Source: Planctomycetaceae bacterium
Lineage (GTDB): Bacteria; Planctomycetota; Planctomycetia; Pirellulales; Pirellulaceae
DNA: 64,000 nt
Direction of reading: 5' to 3'
Assembly (NCBI GenBank): GCA_002726515.1
Contig: PBTE01000055.1
Span: forward strand, 1-64,000
Below, one piece after another: positions 54,817 through 63,603 of the stretch (its first letter is position 1; each line of letters begins with the position of its first letter). The translations under genes were made by a program, and so were the position numbers. A model generated the notes under the pieces. The model was not told where the DNA came from. It saw only the letters and a program-made list of their open reading frames with translations, and made no database searches.

Positions 54817-57024
54817 ATGTCGCTGGACCGCACACAACAACAATCCTCCAAGGATCGAAAACTGGCCCAGGAGTTGAGCCAGCAGCGCACCAGGCCGCCC
54901 GCCGAGGTTCAGGGTTATGATACACGGGTATTCATCGGTTCGGGTGCCTATGGCGAAGTGTGGCGCGGTATTGATTGCAATACCGGTCGCGAAGTGGCGA
55001 TTAAATTCTACACGCACCGCGGAGGTCTTGACTGGTCTCTACTGTCAGGTGAAGTAGAAAAACTACGGTTTCTATCGGCCGACCGATATGTGGTCCAGCT
55101 CTTGGACGTAGGATGGGATTCTGATCCACCCTACTACGTTATGGAATACGTGGAGAATGGATCGTTGGACGATCTACTTCAACGGTATGGACGACTGCCC
55201 GTTGAGGCGGCTGTGGAACTGTTTAGCGAGTTGGCAGTCGGCCTGGTCCACGCGCACGGAAAAGGTGTGCTGCACTGCGACTTAAAACCCGCCAACGTCC
55301 TGCTGGATCAGGATAACAAGCCACGGCTTGCCGACTTCGGTCAGTCCCGGCTCTCCGATGAGCAGACGCCTGCCCTGGGAACGCTGTTTTACATGGCGCC
55401 CGAGCAGGCTGATCTGGAGGCGGTCCCCGATGTGTGTTGGGACGTTTACGCGCTGGGCGCGATCCTTTATTGCATGCTGACCGGCGCCCCTCCCCATCGA
55501 AGCGAACAGGCATTGCAGGAACTGGACGAACGAGTCGATTTAAACAACCGTCTAGGTCATTATCGCCAGACGATTCGCAACGGGCCGTTACTGGTTCAGC
55601 ATCGTTCCGTGCCGGGGATTGATCGAGCACTGGTTGAGATCATCGACCGTTGTTTGGCAATCGATGTCAAAGCTCGCTTTGCCAATGTGTCAGCGCTGCT
55701 CAATGCCCTGCGAGCGAGGAGTGAAGCTCGGGCACGTCGTCCCCTGGTGATGCTGGGTTTTGTCGGTCCAATCCTGATACTTCTGATGATGATTCTTTTC
55801 GCCTGGCGAGGTTATGATCAGGCTATCAGTAATTATAAGTCGGCCGTCGAAGAAACGACTCTGCAGCACAATCGTACCGCTGCAATCAACGTTGCGGCCA
55901 ATGTCTCTAATGAAATCGAGAGCTATTTTCGCAGGGTGGAGCAACTTGCGTCAGACCCTGTTTTTGTGCAGGAATTGGCCGAGGTTGTGATCGAAGATGA
56001 GAGGTTGTCGAAGATTCTGGAAAGATTGAGCGACCCGGGAATTTCCCCGGGTGACCAGGAAAGTTTCATCGAGATTTTTGGACATCACGAAAAACGAAAA
56101 TTTCTCCAGGACCGCATGGAGAACCTGATTAAGAATCAACAGCCTCGCGCGGCAAGTTGGTTTGTCACCAGTCCGGACGGGACACACGTTGCCGCTGCGT
56201 TTGACACAGACAGCCGCCCAGTGGTGGGAAAAAATTATGCCTACCGAACCTACTTTCACGGAGGCCAGGACGACGTGGAGGATCACTCATTACGTCCACC
56301 TCAAATTCCTCGAATTCGAAAGACCCACTTGTCGACTACACTGGAGAGCACCGCTACCGACGAATATAAAGTTGCGATTTCCACACCGGTATTTCGAGGC
56401 GACCAATTAATCGGCCTGGTGGCGATGAGCATTGAGATTGGTCGATTGGTCCAATTTGTGGGGAGTAGCGAGGATCATTTTGCAGTTTTGGTGGAGGGGC
56501 GTGGGGCAGCATTCAAAGGCGTTATTCTCCAGCACCCCCTGTACGACGAGGTTCTGAAGGAGTTGAACAAGCTGCCACCCCAATTTAAATCCAAGGAATA
56601 TCGAGTGAAGCTTGACGATTGGGAATCGCCTCAGTTGACTGAATATTTTGATCCACTGAGTCAGTATGAACCCCATGGTCAAGTTTACCGTCGTTCCTGG
56701 CTGGCATCTGGAGCGCCGGTCACATTCAGTAGTGCGATGGGTACTCGGCCTGATCGAAAGGAGCGGATGGCACCGGGATTGCTGGTTTTGATTCAGCAGG
56801 ATCAGGCTGCTGCCATAACGCCCATTACCGATCTGACATCAGATTTGTTACATTTAGGGGTAGTGGCACTGAGTTTGTTCTTGGTAGTTGTAGGCAGTTC
56901 GTATTATTTTGTAGTACGGGGATTTTGGCAACAAAATCGAGGTAGCATGACGAGAAACGGAGAACTCTCCGTGCTCACATCCTTTTCCAGTATGACCACA
57001 AGACGTATCACAGAAAAGAATTGA
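54817..57024 (+). CDS. Transmembrane Ser/Thr protein kinase with Cache-like sensor ectodomain
   Basis: A 735-residue protein. The cytoplasmic kinase domain (about 34-300) has an intact glycine loop GSGAYGEV (41-48), Lys63, HCD in LHCDLKPAN (153-160), DFG (173-175) and MAPEQ. HCD in place of HRD makes it a non-RD kinase, which usually needs no activation-loop phosphorylation. A membrane helix follows (about 309-330), then about 345 extracytoplasmic residues beginning with a long helix and including SWFVTSPDGTHVAA, VGKNYAYRTYF and AISTPVFRGDQLIGLVAMSIEI, landmarks of double-Cache sensor domains (VGKxYxxRxYF; P-hxxxx-hhGhhxxxI). A second helix (about 678-700) returns to a short basic tail. It starts the cluster with the small membrane protein and the cyclase. 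Confidence 0.9.
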   Translation: MSLDRTQQQSSKDRKLAQELSQQRTRPPAEVQGYDTRVFIGSGAYGEVWRGIDCNTGREVAIKFYTHRGGLDWSLLSGEVEKLRFLSADRYVVQLLDVGWDSDPPYYVMEYVENGSLDDLLQRYGRLPVEAAVELFSELAVGLVHAHGKGVLHCDLKPANVLLDQDNKPRLADFGQSRLSDEQTPALGTLFYMAPEQADLEAVPDVCWDVYALGAILYCMLTGAPPHRSEQALQELDERVDLNNRLGHYRQTIRNGPLLVQHRSVPGIDRALVEIIDRCLAIDVKARFANVSALLNALRARSEARARRPLVMLGFVGPILILLMMILFAWRGYDQAISNYKSAVEETTLQHNRTAAINVAANVSNEIESYFRRVEQLASDPVFVQELAEVVIEDERLSKILERLSDPGISPGDQESFIEIFGHHEKRKFLQDRMENLIKNQQPRAASWFVTSPDGTHVAAAFDTDSRPVVGKNYAYRTYFHGGQDDVEDHSLRPPQIPRIRKTHLSTTLESTATDEYKVAISTPVFRGDQLIGLVAMSIEIGRLVQFVGSSEDHFAVLVEGRGAAFKGVILQHPLYDEVLKELNKLPPQFKSKEYRVKLDDWESPQLTEYFDPLSQYEPHGQVYRRSWLASGAPVTFSSAMGTRPDRKERMAPGLLVLIQQDQAAAITPITDLTSDLLHLGVVALSLFLVVVGSSYYFVVRGFWQQNRGSMTRNGELSVLTSFSSMTTRRITEKN

Positions 57025-57035
57025 GAGTAGATGCA

Positions 57036-57158
57036 ATGATGTTTTTATCTCACATAACAAACTACGAAGCTGGCCCCTTGTTCATTGTTTTTCTGTTGGG
57101 TGTGCTGGTGGGAGTTGGTTTGGCCCGAACGTATGTTACATTTCGCTCATCAAGATAA
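57036..57158 (+). CDS. 40-residue membrane protein between kinase and cyclase
   Basis: A short frame starting ATG ATG 11 bases after the kinase stop. The peptide is MMFLSHITNYEAGPLFIVFL, then LGVLVGVGLARTYVTFRSSR: a short polar N-terminus, one membrane helix of about 20 residues (PLFIVFLLGVLVGVGLA) and a basic cytoplasmic end, a clear single-pass topology. It ends at TAA 57156-57158, 51 bases before the cyclase. I know no family for it. Placement between a membrane kinase and a cyclase suggests a helper or regulator of the kinase. It could be chance, since it is short; the hydrophobic pattern and tight spacing favour a real gene. Confidence 0.55.
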   Translation: MMFLSHITNYEAGPLFIVFLLGVLVGVGLARTYVTFRSSR

Positions 57159-57209
57159 CTGTGAGCAACGGCCAATCAGTCGCATTGTCCCACGCAACCA
57201 CTCTGCGGT

Positions 57210-58979
57210 ATGCCTGATCTGACTGCACAAGGTGCCCAATCACAACATCGCTGGAGACGTCCTGTCCCGATGGGACAGGTGATCGTGTTGGGACGTGGTT
57301 CGGGGGCCTGGTCGGTACCCTGGGACAATCAAGTTTCGCGTCAGCACGTCGAACTGGTCTGCAATGGCGATAAGGCTCAGGTCCGCAGGCTGCCGACTGC
57401 CGGCAACCCCATTTTCGTCAACGGTCAAAGTGTTGAGTCTTTCAGCATGCAGGCCGGAGATCACTTCGTGGTCGGTACCACGACGTTCTCGCTGGTGGAT
57501 GAGCAAATTCAAGTGAGTTCGGATGAACCGCGACCGGTAACCGAACAAACATTTAGTCCCGAGTACTTGCGTCAGGTTGCTTTTCGAAATGCGGACCAGC
57601 GAATTCAGGTGTTGTCGCGTTTACCTGAAATCATTGGGGGTGCGTCGACCGACGGCGAACTTTTTGCCCGTCTGGTGAATGTTTTACTTTCGGGTATTTC
57701 GCGGGCTGGTGCGGCTGCTATTGTTCGAGTTGACGATGATTTTTCCGGCCCGCAATCGCGAATTCTGCACTGGGACCGCCGCATCACTCCGCATCGCGAA
57801 TTTCGTCCCAGCGAAAAACTGATTCGCCAGGCACTCGGGCAGCGTGAAAGCGTGGTGCATGTCTGGAACCGGAAGGCAACTGCTGGCGCAGCCAAATTCA
57901 CGGCCAGTGAAAATGTCGATTGGGCCTATGCCACCCCTGTTTCGGGCGATGCTTGTCGAGACTGGGTCCTTTACATCGCCGGTAGTTTCGACGCTGTAGT
58001 CACTGCCGATGCTCGTGTTTCTGACCCGCTGGACTTGCGGGATGATGTGAAGTTCACTGAATTGGCGGCCACAACTCTGGGAAGCTTGCTCGATGTTCGG
58101 CGACTTGCCGGTTTATCGCAGTTCTTATCTCCCATTGTGTTGGAAGCATTGGCGGGCAAGGATCCCGAAGTCGTTCTGGCCCCGCGCGAGACGGATGTAT
58201 CGGTTTTGTTCTGCGATCTGCGTGGATTTTCCCAACAAAGTGAACAACAGGCCGACAACCTGCTGGGATTGCTCGAACGGGTCAGTCAAGCAATGGGCGT
58301 CATGACTCAGGAGATTTTACAACAGGGCGGCGTTGTCGGGGACTTTCACGGAGATGCAGCCATGGGTTTTTGGGGATGGCCGTTTCCGCAAGAAGACGCC
58401 ATTCTGCGAGTTTGCACCGCGGCACTGGCGATCCGCAGCGAATTCGAGATGGCGGCAAGGCAAGCCAGTCATCCGCTTGCCGATTTTCGAATTGGACTGG
58501 GGTTGGCCACCGGGCGCGCCGTTGCCGGTAAGCTGGGTTCGATCGACCAGGTCAAGGTCAGTGTGTTTGGTCCTGTCGTGAACCTGGCGTCGCGTCTTGA
58601 AAATATGACCAAAGCCTTAGGGGTGGGGATTTTGCTCGATCAGTGCACCGCCGACTACGTACGCAATCATGTCCCTGAAAACGTGGCCCGTGTTCGACGC
58701 CTGGCGGTAGTACGGCCTTACGGCATGCAGCAGGGCGTTGAAGTCAGCGAATTGCTTCCACCGGAGGAAGATTTTCCGCAACTGACCGACCAGCACATTG
58801 AAATTTACGAAGAGGCTGTGGAAGCTTTTTTGCAGGGTGATTGGGCAACCACCCTGGAACAACTGCACCGTGTTCCAGCAATCGATCGTGCGAAGGATTT
58901 TCTCACTGTCTACATCGCGCAACAGAATCGTACGCCGCCAGATCATTGGGATGGAGTGATACCGCTGACGTCCAAGTGA
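57210..58979 (+). CDS. FHA-GAF-class III adenylate/guanylate cyclase
   Basis: A 589-residue cytoplasmic protein of three parts. The FHA domain (about 20-97) has Gly28-Arg29, Ser43-Arg44-x-His46 and the NPIFVNG turn, so it should bind phosphothreonine. Residues about 125-315 look like a GAF domain (ELFARLVNVLLSGISRAGAAAIVRV). A class III cyclase domain (about 330-500) has both metal Asp residues, Asp336 in VLFCDLRGFS and Asp382 in GDFHGDAAMGFW, and the FGPVVNLASRLENMTK segment with the transition-state Asn and Arg. It should make cAMP or cGMP from ATP or GTP; substrate choice is not clear. The last 80 residues are helical. It follows the kinase and small membrane protein in one likely operon. 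Confidence 0.93.
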   Translation: MPDLTAQGAQSQHRWRRPVPMGQVIVLGRGSGAWSVPWDNQVSRQHVELVCNGDKAQVRRLPTAGNPIFVNGQSVESFSMQAGDHFVVGTTTFSLVDEQIQVSSDEPRPVTEQTFSPEYLRQVAFRNADQRIQVLSRLPEIIGGASTDGELFARLVNVLLSGISRAGAAAIVRVDDDFSGPQSRILHWDRRITPHREFRPSEKLIRQALGQRESVVHVWNRKATAGAAKFTASENVDWAYATPVSGDACRDWVLYIAGSFDAVVTADARVSDPLDLRDDVKFTELAATTLGSLLDVRRLAGLSQFLSPIVLEALAGKDPEVVLAPRETDVSVLFCDLRGFSQQSEQQADNLLGLLERVSQAMGVMTQEILQQGGVVGDFHGDAAMGFWGWPFPQEDAILRVCTAALAIRSEFEMAARQASHPLADFRIGLGLATGRAVAGKLGSIDQVKVSVFGPVVNLASRLENMTKALGVGILLDQCTADYVRNHVPENVARVRRLAVVRPYGMQQGVEVSELLPPEEDFPQLTDQHIEIYEEAVEAFLQGDWATTLEQLHRVPAIDRAKDFLTVYIAQQNRTPPDHWDGVIPLTSK

Positions 58980-59438
58980 GATCGTAACGGTCTGCCGCCA
59001 CCGCCTGGTTCAACTGTTACTCCCACTCCACCGGTCGGTGCCCGGGCCCAGATTTTTCTAAGGCCGTAGCATGCAGCGTGGCCGCTTTCTCGAATCCTTC
59101 TTACGGGGTTCGGCCAGGAGGCCGGCAAATCCGTCACAAACTGAAGAATCTCTAGTACACAGGACGATAAACGCTGTAATAGAACCAATGTTGACTTTGA
59201 TGACTAAGATAGTTATGATTAGCTAGGTAACGGACAGATGCCCGGACCAGGTAAACGTTTCACACCAGTGGTACCACCGCGTAAAGAGCAAAGCCCGACG
59301 TCCTCCCCCCCGGTGGCGGCAGCCTCCGGGACGGTACGTCGAACGGAGACGCCAGGTATGTCACTAGCAGGGCAAGGCGCCGGATTGCCGGGAGTGCTGC
59401 ACAGGGCAACGAGCAAGCAGCCGGCTGGCGCGAAAAAA
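58980..59438 (+). other. Gap before the APS reductase core, possible N-terminal extension
   Basis: About 460 bases. A frame in phase with the APS reductase gene is open from ATG 59238 and would add 67 Pro/Ala/Gly-rich residues without family similarity; whether it is translated is unclear. Before that no gene is seen. The promoter for the sulfur genes should be here. Confidence 0.5.
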
Positions 59439-60206
59439 ATGGCAGCAGAAAAACCGTTACTAGAGGGGGCCCTGGCGGCGGACCCACCTTTGCAGCCCAC
59501 GCCTCGGCTTCTGGAAGAATTGAAGGCGGAGAGTGCAAACCTGGAGACAGCCACACCCGCGCAAATTCTCCAGTGGGCGGTCGAGCGTTTTGGCTCCAAG
59601 TTGACAATGGCGACAGCCTTCGGGCCCGAGGGATGCGTGGTCCTGCATCTGCTGGCGGATATCGCACCACAGACTTACATCTTTAATCTGGAGACTGGAT
59701 ACCAGTTTCCAGAGACGCTTGAGCTGCGCGACCGATTTGCGAAACGGTATGGCATCGAGGTTGATTTGGCGAAACCAAATCTGACGGTCGAGGAATTTGA
59801 AACGCAGCATGGTGGCCCTATTTATAAGTCGGATCCCGATCGTTGCTGCTTCGAACGTAAAATAGTCGTCCTTCGCAAAGCAATTCGGGGCAAACATGCC
59901 TGGATCAGCGCGATACGTCGCGACCAGAGCCCCGACCGTGCCACAGCACCGATTGTCAACTGGGACGATCGCTTTCAGCTTGTCAAAATTAATCCTCTTG
60001 CCAATTGCACCACGGGTGACATCTGGAAGATGATCGTCGACCAGGAGATCCCTTACAATCCGTTGCACGACCAGGGTTTTACCAGCATTGGCTGCCGACC
60101 CTGTACACGTGCGGTGTTGTTTGGTGAAGACGAACGGGCTGGACGTTGGAGCGGGACGGAGAAGACGGAGTGTGGACTACACTCGCTTGGCCAGTTCAAG
60201 AAGTAG
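59439..60206 (+). CDS. cysH: Assimilatory adenylyl-sulfate (APS) reductase, iron-sulfur type
   Basis: A reductase of about 255 residues in the PAPS/APS reductase family, which reduces activated sulfate to sulfite with thioredoxin-like donors. The PP-loop-type nucleotide domain has MATAFGPEGCVVLHLL and YIFNLETGYQFPET. Two Cys pairs, Cys136-Cys137 (DRCCFERK) and Cys219-x-x-Cys222 (GCRPCTRAV), are the ligands of the [4Fe-4S] cluster of APS-specific enzymes and are absent from PAPS reductases of the E. coli type. The redox-active Cys245 is in ECGLH. An in-frame start at 59238 would add a nonconserved extension. The Rrf2 gene follows by about 56 bases. Confidence 0.92.
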   Translation: MAAEKPLLEGALAADPPLQPTPRLLEELKAESANLETATPAQILQWAVERFGSKLTMATAFGPEGCVVLHLLADIAPQTYIFNLETGYQFPETLELRDRFAKRYGIEVDLAKPNLTVEEFETQHGGPIYKSDPDRCCFERKIVVLRKAIRGKHAWISAIRRDQSPDRATAPIVNWDDRFQLVKINPLANCTTGDIWKMIVDQEIPYNPLHDQGFTSIGCRPCTRAVLFGEDERAGRWSGTEKTECGLHSLGQFKK

Positions 60207-60262
60207 CCGGAGAAGCAAAGAACACTTCAGTTATTGTCAAACGTCGCAATTCCCAACTCACT

Positions 60263-60691
60263 ATGAACGTTTCAGCCCGCACGGAATACGCCTGTATCGC
60301 AGTCATGGATTTGGCGACCAGTTACGGTTCGGGCGATCCGGTACGCATTGGCCGGATTGCAGAGACGCATGGGATCCCGGCTCGATTTCTGGTACAGATT
60401 CTTTTGCAGCTCAAGAGTGCTGGCATGGTATCCAGTACACGCGGCGCAACCGGTGGATATAAATTGATTCGCGATCCCAAGGAGGTCACCTTGGGTGAAG
60501 TCATGTCCGTAGTAGAAGGTTCTCGGGGTCCCATTGAAACCAGCGCCACCATCAAAACTCCCATATCAGACTCTTTGACGCAGGCCTGGACGGAAGTCGC
60601 CACGACGGAAAAGGACATGCTTGACGCGATCACCCTGGCTGATTTACTGGAAGACGCAATTGGTCAAACCGAAGACATGTATTACATCTAG
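60263..60691 (+). CDS. Rrf2-family transcription regulator, no iron-sulfur cysteines
   Basis: A 142-residue DNA-binding protein from ATG 60263, the start that gives the usual N-terminus (MNVSARTEYACIAVMDLA); an earlier frame start at 60146 overlaps cysH and is not family-like. The winged helix (about 5-75) has RIAETHGIPARFLVQILLQLKSAGMVSSTRGATGGYKL as landmark segments RFLVQILLQLKSAG and SSTRGATGGYKL. The Cys triad that binds Fe-S in IscR or NsrR is absent, as in CymR, the Rrf2-type regulator of cysteine metabolism. Location between cysH and cysDNC suggests it controls sulfur assimilation, perhaps by sensing a cysteine precursor. That is inference from CymR. Confidence 0.9.
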   Translation: MNVSARTEYACIAVMDLATSYGSGDPVRIGRIAETHGIPARFLVQILLQLKSAGMVSSTRGATGGYKLIRDPKEVTLGEVMSVVEGSRGPIETSATIKTPISDSLTQAWTEVATTEKDMLDAITLADLLEDAIGQTEDMYYI

Positions 60692-60760
60692 AGACGCGCA
60701 GCCAAAGTGCTGACGGACGAAGATTGATGCGGAATGCGGCTCGACAACCACAAATCGCCA

Positions 60761-62698
60761 CTAGCCGACAATTACCCCTTTTTCCACCAGTAGAGACATT
60801 AGTTTGTCCACGCACTGCTCAGCAGACAATTCATGGGTAGCCAGCACGAGATCCGGCGACTGGGGTGCTTCGTACGTGGCTGAAACACCCGGGAAATTGG
60901 CGATGTCGCCGGAATCAGCTTGAGGGTACAGTCCCTCCTGGTCGCGCTTGCGGCAGACTTCCAGCGGTGCGTTCAGGTGTACGACCAGGAATTGTTCCGG
61001 TCCAATGACTTCGGCCGCTTTCAGACGTACCTCCTCTTGTGGTGACACAAAGGCGCACAGGCAAATGAGGCCCGCATCGTTCATCAGGCGTGCCACTTCG
61101 GCACTGCGTCGTAGATTTTCACTGCGATCCTGAGCAGTGAACCCCAGATCTTTACTGATGCCACGCCGCATGTTCTCTCCATCCAGTACGGTAGCAACTC
61201 GTCCCAGATCGAAGAGCCTGCGTTCTGTCGCGTAGGCGAGGGTGCTTTTTCCGGCACCGGACAGTCCTGTTAGCAGCACGGTGACAGGCTTCTGGCCGAA
61301 ACGGGCACTGCGTTGATCGGTCGTAACGATACTGTCTTGTTGATGCAAACTCTCAGAGTACTGATCTTCCCAGTGATCACGGTGTTCATCGCTTGTTGTG
61401 CGATTCAGAATCATTCCCGCACCGACCGTTACATTGCTCAGGCGATCGACCACGATGAAGGCACCGGAGGCACGGTTTCTCCGATAACCGTCGTGTGCTA
61501 TCGGTTCGTCGAGAGAAATTGAACAGCGTCCGATTTCGTTCAATTGGAGAGCAGGAGCGTCTTCCCGATGCAGGGTGTTGACATCAATTCTGTAACGAAG
61601 AGTTTCAATCGTTCCCGTAACCATTTTTGTTGTGTGTTTGAACAGGTACTGCTTGCCCGCGACCAGAGATTGTTCGGCCATCCACACCACCGTGGCATCG
61701 AAACTATGTGCCAGGCGAGGTATGTTTCCCGGTCGGCAAATCATATCACCCCGGCTGATGTCAATTTCGTCTTCCAATGTCAGGGTAACTGCCTGAGGCG
61801 AGAAAGCTTCTTCCAATTCATCTTCAAAGGTGACGATCGACTTCACGTGACTGGTCTTCCGTGAAGGGAGCACGATCACTTCGTCACCTCGACGAATGAT
61901 TCCAGAAGCGACGGTGCCACAGAAACCGCGAAAGTCGAGGTGGGGCCGGTTGACAAACTGAACCGGGAAGCGGAAGTCTTCCAGGTTTCTGTCCGAGCCG
62001 ACATAGACGGTCTCGATGAAACCCATAAACGTCTTGCCTTCGTACCAGGGCATGTTCTCGCCGGCATTGACCACATTGTCTCCCTTCAGTGCGGACAGTG
62101 GCATGAAGTGCAAGTCGGGAACATCAAGTCGCGAAGCAAAATCTTTGTAGTCAGAGCAGATACGGTCAAAAACCTCCTCCTGGTAGTCCACCAGGTCCAT
62201 TTTGTTGACCGCTACCAGAATGTGCCGGATTCCCAGCAGGGAGGTGATGAAAGTGTGGCGTTTCGTTTGTGTTGCGACTCCATGGCGGGCATCAATCAAG
62301 ATCACAGCCAAGTCGGCCGTAGAACCGCCTGTTGCCATGTTACGCGTGTACTGCACGTGGCCGGGCGTGTCGGCGATGATGAATTTTCGTTTGGCGGTAG
62401 AAAAGTAACGATAAGCGACGTCGATCGTAATTCCTTGCTCTCTCTCGGCTCGCAAACCGTCTGTCAGAAGTGCGGGATCGAAGTCGTCACCGGTCGTGCC
62501 ATGTACGGCTGAATCCTTGCGGATAGTTGCCAGCGTATCTTCATAAATCATTTTTGAGTCGTAGAGCAGTTTTCCGATCAACGTGCTCTTGCCATCATCG
62601 ACGCTTCCACAAGTGATGAAACGCAGCAGTTCCTTGTTCTCGTGTTGTTCGAGATAGGCGTGAATATCAGTTGCAATGAGATCCGATTGGTGACTCAA
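60761..62698 (-). CDS. cysNC: Bifunctional sulfate adenylyltransferase GTPase subunit / APS kinase
   Basis: A 645-residue fusion protein. The N-terminal EF-Tu-like GTPase (CysN, about 23-445) has GSVDDGKST (31-39), DTPGH (110-114) and NKMD (165-168) and drives sulfate activation by CysD. The C-terminal APS kinase (CysC, about 470-645) has P-loop GLSGAGKST (478-486) and [16 protein letters not shown], and would phosphorylate APS to PAPS. The linker is polar. Its ATG overlaps the stop of cysD by four bases, so translation is coupled. It is convergent with the cysH-Rrf2 pair, 70 bases apart. Confidence 0.96.
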
Positions 62699-63603
62699 AA
62701 ATACCCTTCCTTTTTCTTGTCTTCCATCGTACCCTCGTCGTCGTTATCAATCACCCGACCCTGTCGTTCGCTGGTCGTGGTCAGTAGCATCTCTTGAATG
62801 ATGTCAGGCAAAGTTGCAGCATCTGATTCGACTGCCCCGGTCAGTGGATAACAGCCGAGAGTACGAAATCGGACCATTTTTTCGACGGGTTTTTCACCCG
62901 GATCCAGTTTCAAACGATCATCATCCACCAGGACCATGATGCCATTACGTTGAATCACTGGACGCTGTGCAGCGTAGTAAAGGGGCACAATCGGAATTTT
63001 CTCGAGGTGGATGTACAGCCAGATGTCAAGCTCCGTCCAGTTGGAAAGGGGGAAAACGCGAATGCTTTCACCTTTGTTCACTCGGCTGTTATACAGGTTC
63101 CATAGTTCTGGCCGCTGATTCTTAGGATCCCAGCGATGGTGCTGATCACGGAACGAATAGACGCGTTCCTTTGCCCGTGATTTTTCCTCGTCACGCCGGG
63201 CTCCACCAAAGGCGGCATCAAACCCCCATTGGTCCAGCGCCTTCTTCAAGCCTTCGGTCTTCATGAGTGTTGTGTGTTTGCCACTGTGCTCCAGCGGATG
63301 AATGCCTTCCTTCAAACCTTCTTCATTGATGTAGGTCATCACCTCCAGGCCCAACTCCTTTTTTGCATAGTTCTCGCGAAAAGCATACATCTCGCTGAAC
63401 TTCCAAGTCGTGTCGACATGCAACAGAGGAAAAGGAGGTTTGGCAGGGGCAAAGGCCTTCAGCGCTAACTGCACCATCACGGAGGAATCTTTGCCCACGG
63501 AATAGAGCATGACGGGATTCTTGAATTCCGCCGCTACTTCCCGAATGATGTGAATGCTCTCCGCCTCCAGCAGTTTCAAGTGAGTGAGGTGAAAACTGGA
63601 CAT
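62695..63603 (-). CDS. cysD: Sulfate adenylyltransferase subunit 2
   Basis: A 302-residue ATP-pyrophosphatase-family subunit that makes APS from ATP and sulfate, with CysN as GTPase partner. It has the PP-loop [25 protein letters not shown], the [25 protein letters not shown] block and [18 protein letters not shown], as in normal CysD of about 300 residues, and ends EGYF. The first gene of the cysD-cysNC operon; stop and next start overlap (ATGA). A regulator of the Rrf2 type is encoded nearby. Confidence 0.97.

Follow-up and report, generated by a model that had tools for sequence, protein, structure and literature searches.

A conserved pair of Cache-like sensor kinase and FHA-cyclase in Planctomycetia, with a candidate phosphothreonine link

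Does a sensor kinase hand its signal, as a phosphothreonine, to the nucleotide cyclase that is encoded next to it? This question is raised by a locus from a Planctomycetaceae bacterium (assembly GCA_002726515.1; 5.27 Mb in 236 contigs, 95% complete). The analyzed stretch of 64,000 nucleotides (contig PBTE01000055.1, positions 1 to 64,000) is referred to as the window, and all coordinates are positions therein. A transmembrane Ser/Thr kinase with a Cache-like ectodomain, 735 amino acids (aa) long (54817..57024), is followed by a 40-aa open reading frame (ORF) with a single transmembrane (TM) helix (57036..57158) and by a protein of 589 aa that consists of an FHA domain, a GAF-like domain and a class III nucleotide cyclase (57210..58979). 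All three are encoded on the plus strand and are separated by gaps of 11 and 51 bases, just as the initial annotation of this locus had described. In its model, the kinase creates a phosphothreonine on itself, on the small protein or on another partner, and this is read by the FHA domain of the cyclase.

The kinase and the FHA-cyclase are an ancient two-gene module of the class Planctomycetia. Many of the 146 genomes sampled from the order Pirellulales have a full-length orthologue of the cyclase, and about 14 kb were taken around 70 of these orthologues. In half of these 70 loci, the orthologous kinase is encoded directly upstream on the same strand. The same arrangement occurs in three more family-level groups of the class (f21, f111 and f112), and over the whole class the kinase directly precedes the cyclase in 59 loci, 57 of which are distinct. 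The named relatives include metagenome-assembled genomes of Pirellulaceae, Rhodopirellula and Rubripirellula and, more distantly, Zavarzinella formosa (Gemmatales), which belongs to f112; f21 and f111 appear to belong to Planctomycetales and Isosphaerales. The gaps between the two genes are mostly 0-150 bases, with several of 195-1433 bases. Eight gene pairs overlap, seven of them by 8 bases and one by 23 bases, which we liken to translationally coupled genes. Where the pair is split, the kinase is usually encoded elsewhere in the genome, and of the 29 genomes in which no full-length cyclase was detected, 26 also lack the kinase. When neighboring ORFs were clustered, no third conserved neighbor gene emerged (the kinase cluster is present in 36 loci, the next cluster in 9). 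The initial annotation had named absent linkage in related genomes as one way to refute its model; this check was run, and the linkage is decisively conserved across the class.

Some loci deviate from this simple picture. In one (L168), the frame of the upstream kinase is cut at 374 codons while the similarity spans residues 1-703, which reflects either an assembly error or a pseudogene. Family f21 has a second, more distant FHA-cyclase (L225-L229; 35-36% identity) that is not linked to the kinase and mostly coexists with the linked pair in the same genome.

The FHA domain (residues 25-98; 57282..57503) is recognized by Pfam with an E-value of 2.5e-5 (25.1 bits, cut-off 20.7). The residues that define the phosphothreonine pocket of FHA domains are Gly, Arg, Ser, His and Asn (PMC5549992). 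Among 114 aligned cyclases, the corresponding G28, R29, S43, H46 and N66 are retained in 112, 110, 105, 112 and 112, respectively. Judging from these residues, the domain is equipped for phosphothreonine binding. The window genome codes for a further FHA protein (L002, contig C193), in which the FHA domain is followed by a probable GAF domain and a histidine kinase within one protein.

A candidate for the bound phosphothreonine lies in the kinase itself. Its cytosolic N-terminal tail is short and mostly variable, but it keeps the motif Thr6-x-x-Gln9 (54832..54843). For the analysis of the tail, 78 kinases were aligned after extension of start codons where needed, and changes were counted by parsimony on a tree computed from the kinase domain. 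Thr occupies column 6 in 77 of the 78 kinases, which takes a single change on the tree. In column 9, 64 kinases have Gln, with 7 changes, and 8 have Met; the latter are mainly from the Gemmatales group. Columns 5, 7, 8, 10 and 11, in contrast, show 39, 25, 45, 29 and 47 changes. Elsewhere in the tail, Ser21 is kept in 72 of 75 kinases. The sole kinase without Thr6 is from a genome (G110) in which no cyclase was detected. Only three Thr columns are conserved across the kinase, T6, T56 (NTG loop) and T189 (P+1 loop). As the latter two lie inside the catalytic core, T6 is the only conserved Thr outside it. The other readable kinases of the window genome, which mostly have an HRD motif, all lack a Thr6-x-x-Gln9 tail.

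FHA domains bind phosphothreonine, and their specificity is set by the residue at position +3 (PMC5549992; PMC3953482). A strictly conserved Thr followed by a selected residue at +3, with free variation in between, is the signature expected of a sequence that is read by an FHA domain, which makes T6-x-x-Q9 a candidate FHA ligand. Of the sites left open by the initial annotation, the intact FHA pocket and the near-invariant tail motif favor the kinase itself.

Is the kinase likely to be active? The initial annotation had called it a membrane Ser/Thr kinase with a Cache-like sensor; the kinase assignment holds up, and the Cache-like one is supported at the level of the family. The kinase domain (residues 36-289; 54922..55683) gives a strong Pkinase match (2.8e-42). 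Lys63, His153, Cys154, Asp155 and Asp173 are each present in 70 of 70 kinases, which includes the Lys, the catalytic Asp and the DFG Asp expected of an active Ser/Thr kinase. Since Cys154 invariably precedes the catalytic Asp (HCD at residues 153-155), the kinase belongs to the non-RD type. Activation-loop phosphorylation is not expected as the switch in non-RD kinases and is therefore not expected here either; apart from T189, the activation loop has no conserved Thr among the 70 kinases.

The ectodomain (55813..56820) lies between two TM helices that are predicted from the sequence. Its dCache_1 match (residues 343-549; 2e-7) is below threshold in the window kinase (31.2 bits, cut-off 45). 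The label is nevertheless sound for the family, because dCache_1 is found in 22 of 32 orthologues at E < 0.001 (best 1.8e-15). The kinase is not a PASTA kinase (PknB/Stk1), as the NCBIfam equivalog model scores 149 bits against a cut-off of 450 and covers the kinase domain only. Neither is it part of a TOMM kinase/cyclase fusion, with 57.6 bits against 705.75 and two ORFs that have separate stop codons. The predicted structure of the kinase (predicted local distance difference test, pLDDT, of 48) is too poor to be used. Another kinase of the window genome (L146, contig C8) has an N-terminal tail in which the sequence SLGDxxTFxGG occurs three times; this may be an array of sites for phosphorylation or for FHA domains.

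The catalytic residues of the cyclase are intact. The catalytic domain (58182..58622) gives a Guanylate_cyc match of 3.8e-11 in Pfam. The two metal-binding residues D336 and D382 as well as the transition-state Asn (N458) are each conserved in 113 of the 114 cyclases, and the transition-state Arg (R462) in all of them. The AlphaFold model of the protein, computed from 16 sequences, has a mean pLDDT of 83, and its cyclase fold matches solved cyclases with Z scores of about 17-21, the alignments mostly covering residues 297-527. Thus, the FHA domain, the class III cyclase and both of its metal-binding Asp residues assigned by the initial annotation stand. The GAF domain assigned by it was not confirmed at the sequence level: with E-values allowed up to 10, Pfam gave no match to GAF for the window cyclase or for any of eight homologues. 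In the AlphaFold model, the helices and strands of residues 128-260 (57591..57989) follow each other in a GAF-like order, and we refer to this alpha/beta region as GAF-like on the basis of its predicted fold.

Beyond a cyclic-nucleotide cyclase in general, as it had been proposed, the protein is more likely a guanylyl cyclase. The first base-recognition position is residue 378 (58341..58343), which is Asp in 111 of the 114 cyclases, Glu in 2 and Ser in 1. It is never Lys, in disagreement with canonical adenylyl cyclases. Among solved proteins, the guanylyl cyclase Cya2 (2w01; 1.1e-14) resembles the catalytic domain most closely in sequence, and its Glu488 aligns with Asp378. The exchange E488K turns Cya2 from a guanylyl into an adenylyl cyclase that makes cAMP (PMC5995499). 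The acidic residue aligned with Glu488 makes GTP the more likely substrate. The second base-recognition position is residue 451, where 95 of the cyclases have Thr and 16 have Gly. Lys449, which had been considered as the base-specificity residue, was ruled out in favor of position 451 by comparison with Cya2 (PMC4215837). Two points speak against a guanylyl cyclase. Residue 378 is Asp and only rarely the Glu of known guanylyl cyclases. At position 451, where Cya2 completes a Glu-Gly pair, most of the proteins have Thr, which is common to adenylyl and guanylyl cyclases (PMC4215837). On balance, the enzyme is probably a guanylyl cyclase.

Taken together, we consider it reasonably probable that the Cache kinase autophosphorylates Thr6, that the FHA domain of the cyclase docks there and that cyclase output changes as a result. 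The Cache-like ectodomain would sense a signal outside the cytoplasm, upon which the kinase would phosphorylate its own cytosolic N-terminal tail at Thr6. On the resulting pThr6-x-x-Gln9, the partner cyclase would dock with its FHA domain. Docking would bring the cyclase to the kinase and would switch the formation of the active cyclase dimer, which it most likely favors. The cell would then make a cyclic nucleotide, most likely cyclic GMP (cGMP), with cAMP as the alternative. There is a precedent for such docking in Agrobacterium, where the membrane protein TssL has a pThr14 at its N-terminus to which Fha binds (PMC3953482).

Several observations weigh against this. Two genomes (G564 and G060) have a kinase with the Thr-x-x-Gln motif and no detected cyclase, both assemblies consisting of many contigs, and the motif could serve another reader. 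For the kinases that diverge most, the tail alignment is less reliable. Ser43 of the FHA pocket is replaced by Ala or Gly in 8 members of the Gemmatales group (L249, L251-L257, in a sub-clade of f112), in which FHA binding may thus differ; the linked kinases of these members have Met instead of Gln at position +3. Two residues before Ser43, FHA position 41 carries a polar residue in 37 of the 46 pairs with Gln at +3 and a hydrophobic one in 10 of the 12 pairs with another +3 residue (Met goes with an aromatic residue in 8 of 8). This co-variation ranks 4th among 589 columns and is no stronger than that of unrelated columns which mark the same clade. It is therefore not counted as proof.

Alternatively, kinase and FHA-cyclase may cooperate while the phosphothreonine that the FHA domain recognizes lies elsewhere, in the C-terminal tail of the kinase, in a third protein or, in the manner of GarA/OdhI, in the cyclase itself. 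The gene linkage and the FHA pocket speak for some sort of phospho-link, and many of the kinases have Thr-rich C-terminal tails. These tails, however, differ widely, and some linked kinases (such as L076, L099 and L104) have almost none, which rules the tails out as the main FHA site. Self-binding in the GarA style was also ruled out, since neither the N-terminus of the cyclase nor the linker between the FHA and GAF-like domains has an invariant Thr. With T6 being the only near-invariant Thr outside the catalytic core of the kinase, a site elsewhere is unlikely.

Less likely still is a contact of cyclase and kinase through the FHA domain that has the opposite effect, so that the kinase is restrained or the cyclase is switched off. 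There is a precedent in MupFHA, a binding partner of PknQ that suppresses autophosphorylation of this kinase (PMC4238996), and the present data do not fix the sign of control. The catalytic residues of the cyclase are strictly conserved, which indicates that its output is under selection, although inhibition by docking would still be compatible with this. The least probable account is plain co-expression without phospho-dependent contact, with the tail motif serving another reader: the two genes do not adjoin in about half of the Pirellulales loci, and G564 has the motif without a detected cyclase, but genomes with separated genes retain a T6-x-x-Q kinase elsewhere, and the one kinase that lost the motif is from a genome without a detected cyclase (G110).

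The docking of the FHA domain on Thr6 can be extended, more tentatively, to a class-wide relay. The pThr6-x-x-Gln tag of the Cache kinase would dock an FHA guanylyl cyclase, so that phosphothreonine would directly drive cGMP production via two separable proteins, in at least some genomes without a receptor of the PF00027 type. This cyclic-nucleotide-binding domain is present in 133 of 142 genomes of the order, and it was not found on any contig of the window genome. The receptor is thus either noncanonical here or encoded in the missing 5% of the assembly.

Pairs of a kinase and an FHA protein and fusions of a kinase and a cyclase are already known (Pkn2; PMC1262709). In PpkA with Fha/TssL (type VI secretion), PknQ with MupFHA and PknH with EmbR, a phosphothreonine is likewise made by a kinase and read by an FHA domain, and the genes are often close (PMC3953482, PMC4238996). 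What differs here is that the FHA protein is a nucleotide cyclase, that the kinase has a Cache-like sensor and that the candidate site is an N-terminal Thr-x-x-Gln on the kinase, conserved throughout the class. Pkn2 from Myxococcus xanthus and the TOMM kinase/cyclase fusions also combine a Ser/Thr kinase with a class III cyclase. The base-recognition residues of Pkn2 are Glu-Thr (PMC1262709), close to the Asp-Thr found here. These fusions are, however, one polypeptide, while the two proteins of the present pair are joined, if at all, via the FHA domain. Cya2 from Synechocystis (2w01) shares the acidic base-recognition residue with the present cyclase but has Glu instead of Asp, a CHASE2 membrane sensor and no FHA domain. 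In animal receptor guanylyl cyclases, an extracellular sensor, a TM segment, a kinase-like domain and a guanylyl cyclase also form one pathway. Their kinase-like domain lacks catalytic residues (PMC1262709), in contrast to the kinase described here, which appears catalytically intact and is separate from the cyclase. There is no evidence that the two arrangements share a common descent. As a further variant within Pirellulales, family f7 has HRD kinases of about 900-1000 aa (L270-L279) with a class III cyclase-like region before the kinase domain in the same chain. They are a fused counterpart of the two-gene pair.

In the open-licence literature, we found neither a conserved pair of a kinase and an FHA-cyclase with such a tail motif, which may have been described elsewhere, nor a report on FHA-cyclases with kinases in Planctomycetes. 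Planctomycetes have dozens of Ser/Thr kinases, with 59 counted in Pirellula sp. (PMC1262709), and also in that literature, no report was found that links one of them to a second messenger. In this module, a single kinase would have its own specific partner, a specific candidate site (Thr6), a specific reader (the FHA domain) and a specific output (a cyclic nucleotide). It would point to bacterial cGMP signaling in Planctomycetia. We know of no description of such signaling in this class. If the docking on Thr6 is true, the pair offers a clean natural example of a sensor kinase wired to a cyclase by an FHA domain, linking two signaling languages that are usually studied apart. The strictly conserved Thr with its lineage-varying +3 residue would then be a ready data set on FHA specificity.

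The initial annotation had listed the small single-helix protein as a component of the system. The 40-aa ORF is present and clearly hydrophobic, and a TM-like ORF of similar size arises in only 0.6% of the dinucleotide shuffles of the spacer. It has, however, no convincing relative in 80 loci (tblastn, best E-value 0.13) and no match to a protein family in profile searches, Pfam included. As most spacers between kinase and cyclase are also too short for a 40-aa ORF, it cannot be a core component and was ruled out as the third one. It may be a real lineage-specific gene, or it may be spurious. In another locus (L104), a gap of 419 bases between kinase and cyclase is filled by an unrelated ORF of 132 aa with two TM helices.

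No conserved link to sulfate assimilation was found by neighbor clustering around the cyclase loci. In the window, sulfate assimilation genes directly adjoin (59238-63603), coding for a PAPS reductase-type protein on the plus strand and, on the minus strand, for a CysNC-like protein and a CysD-like protein with a PAPS_reduct domain.

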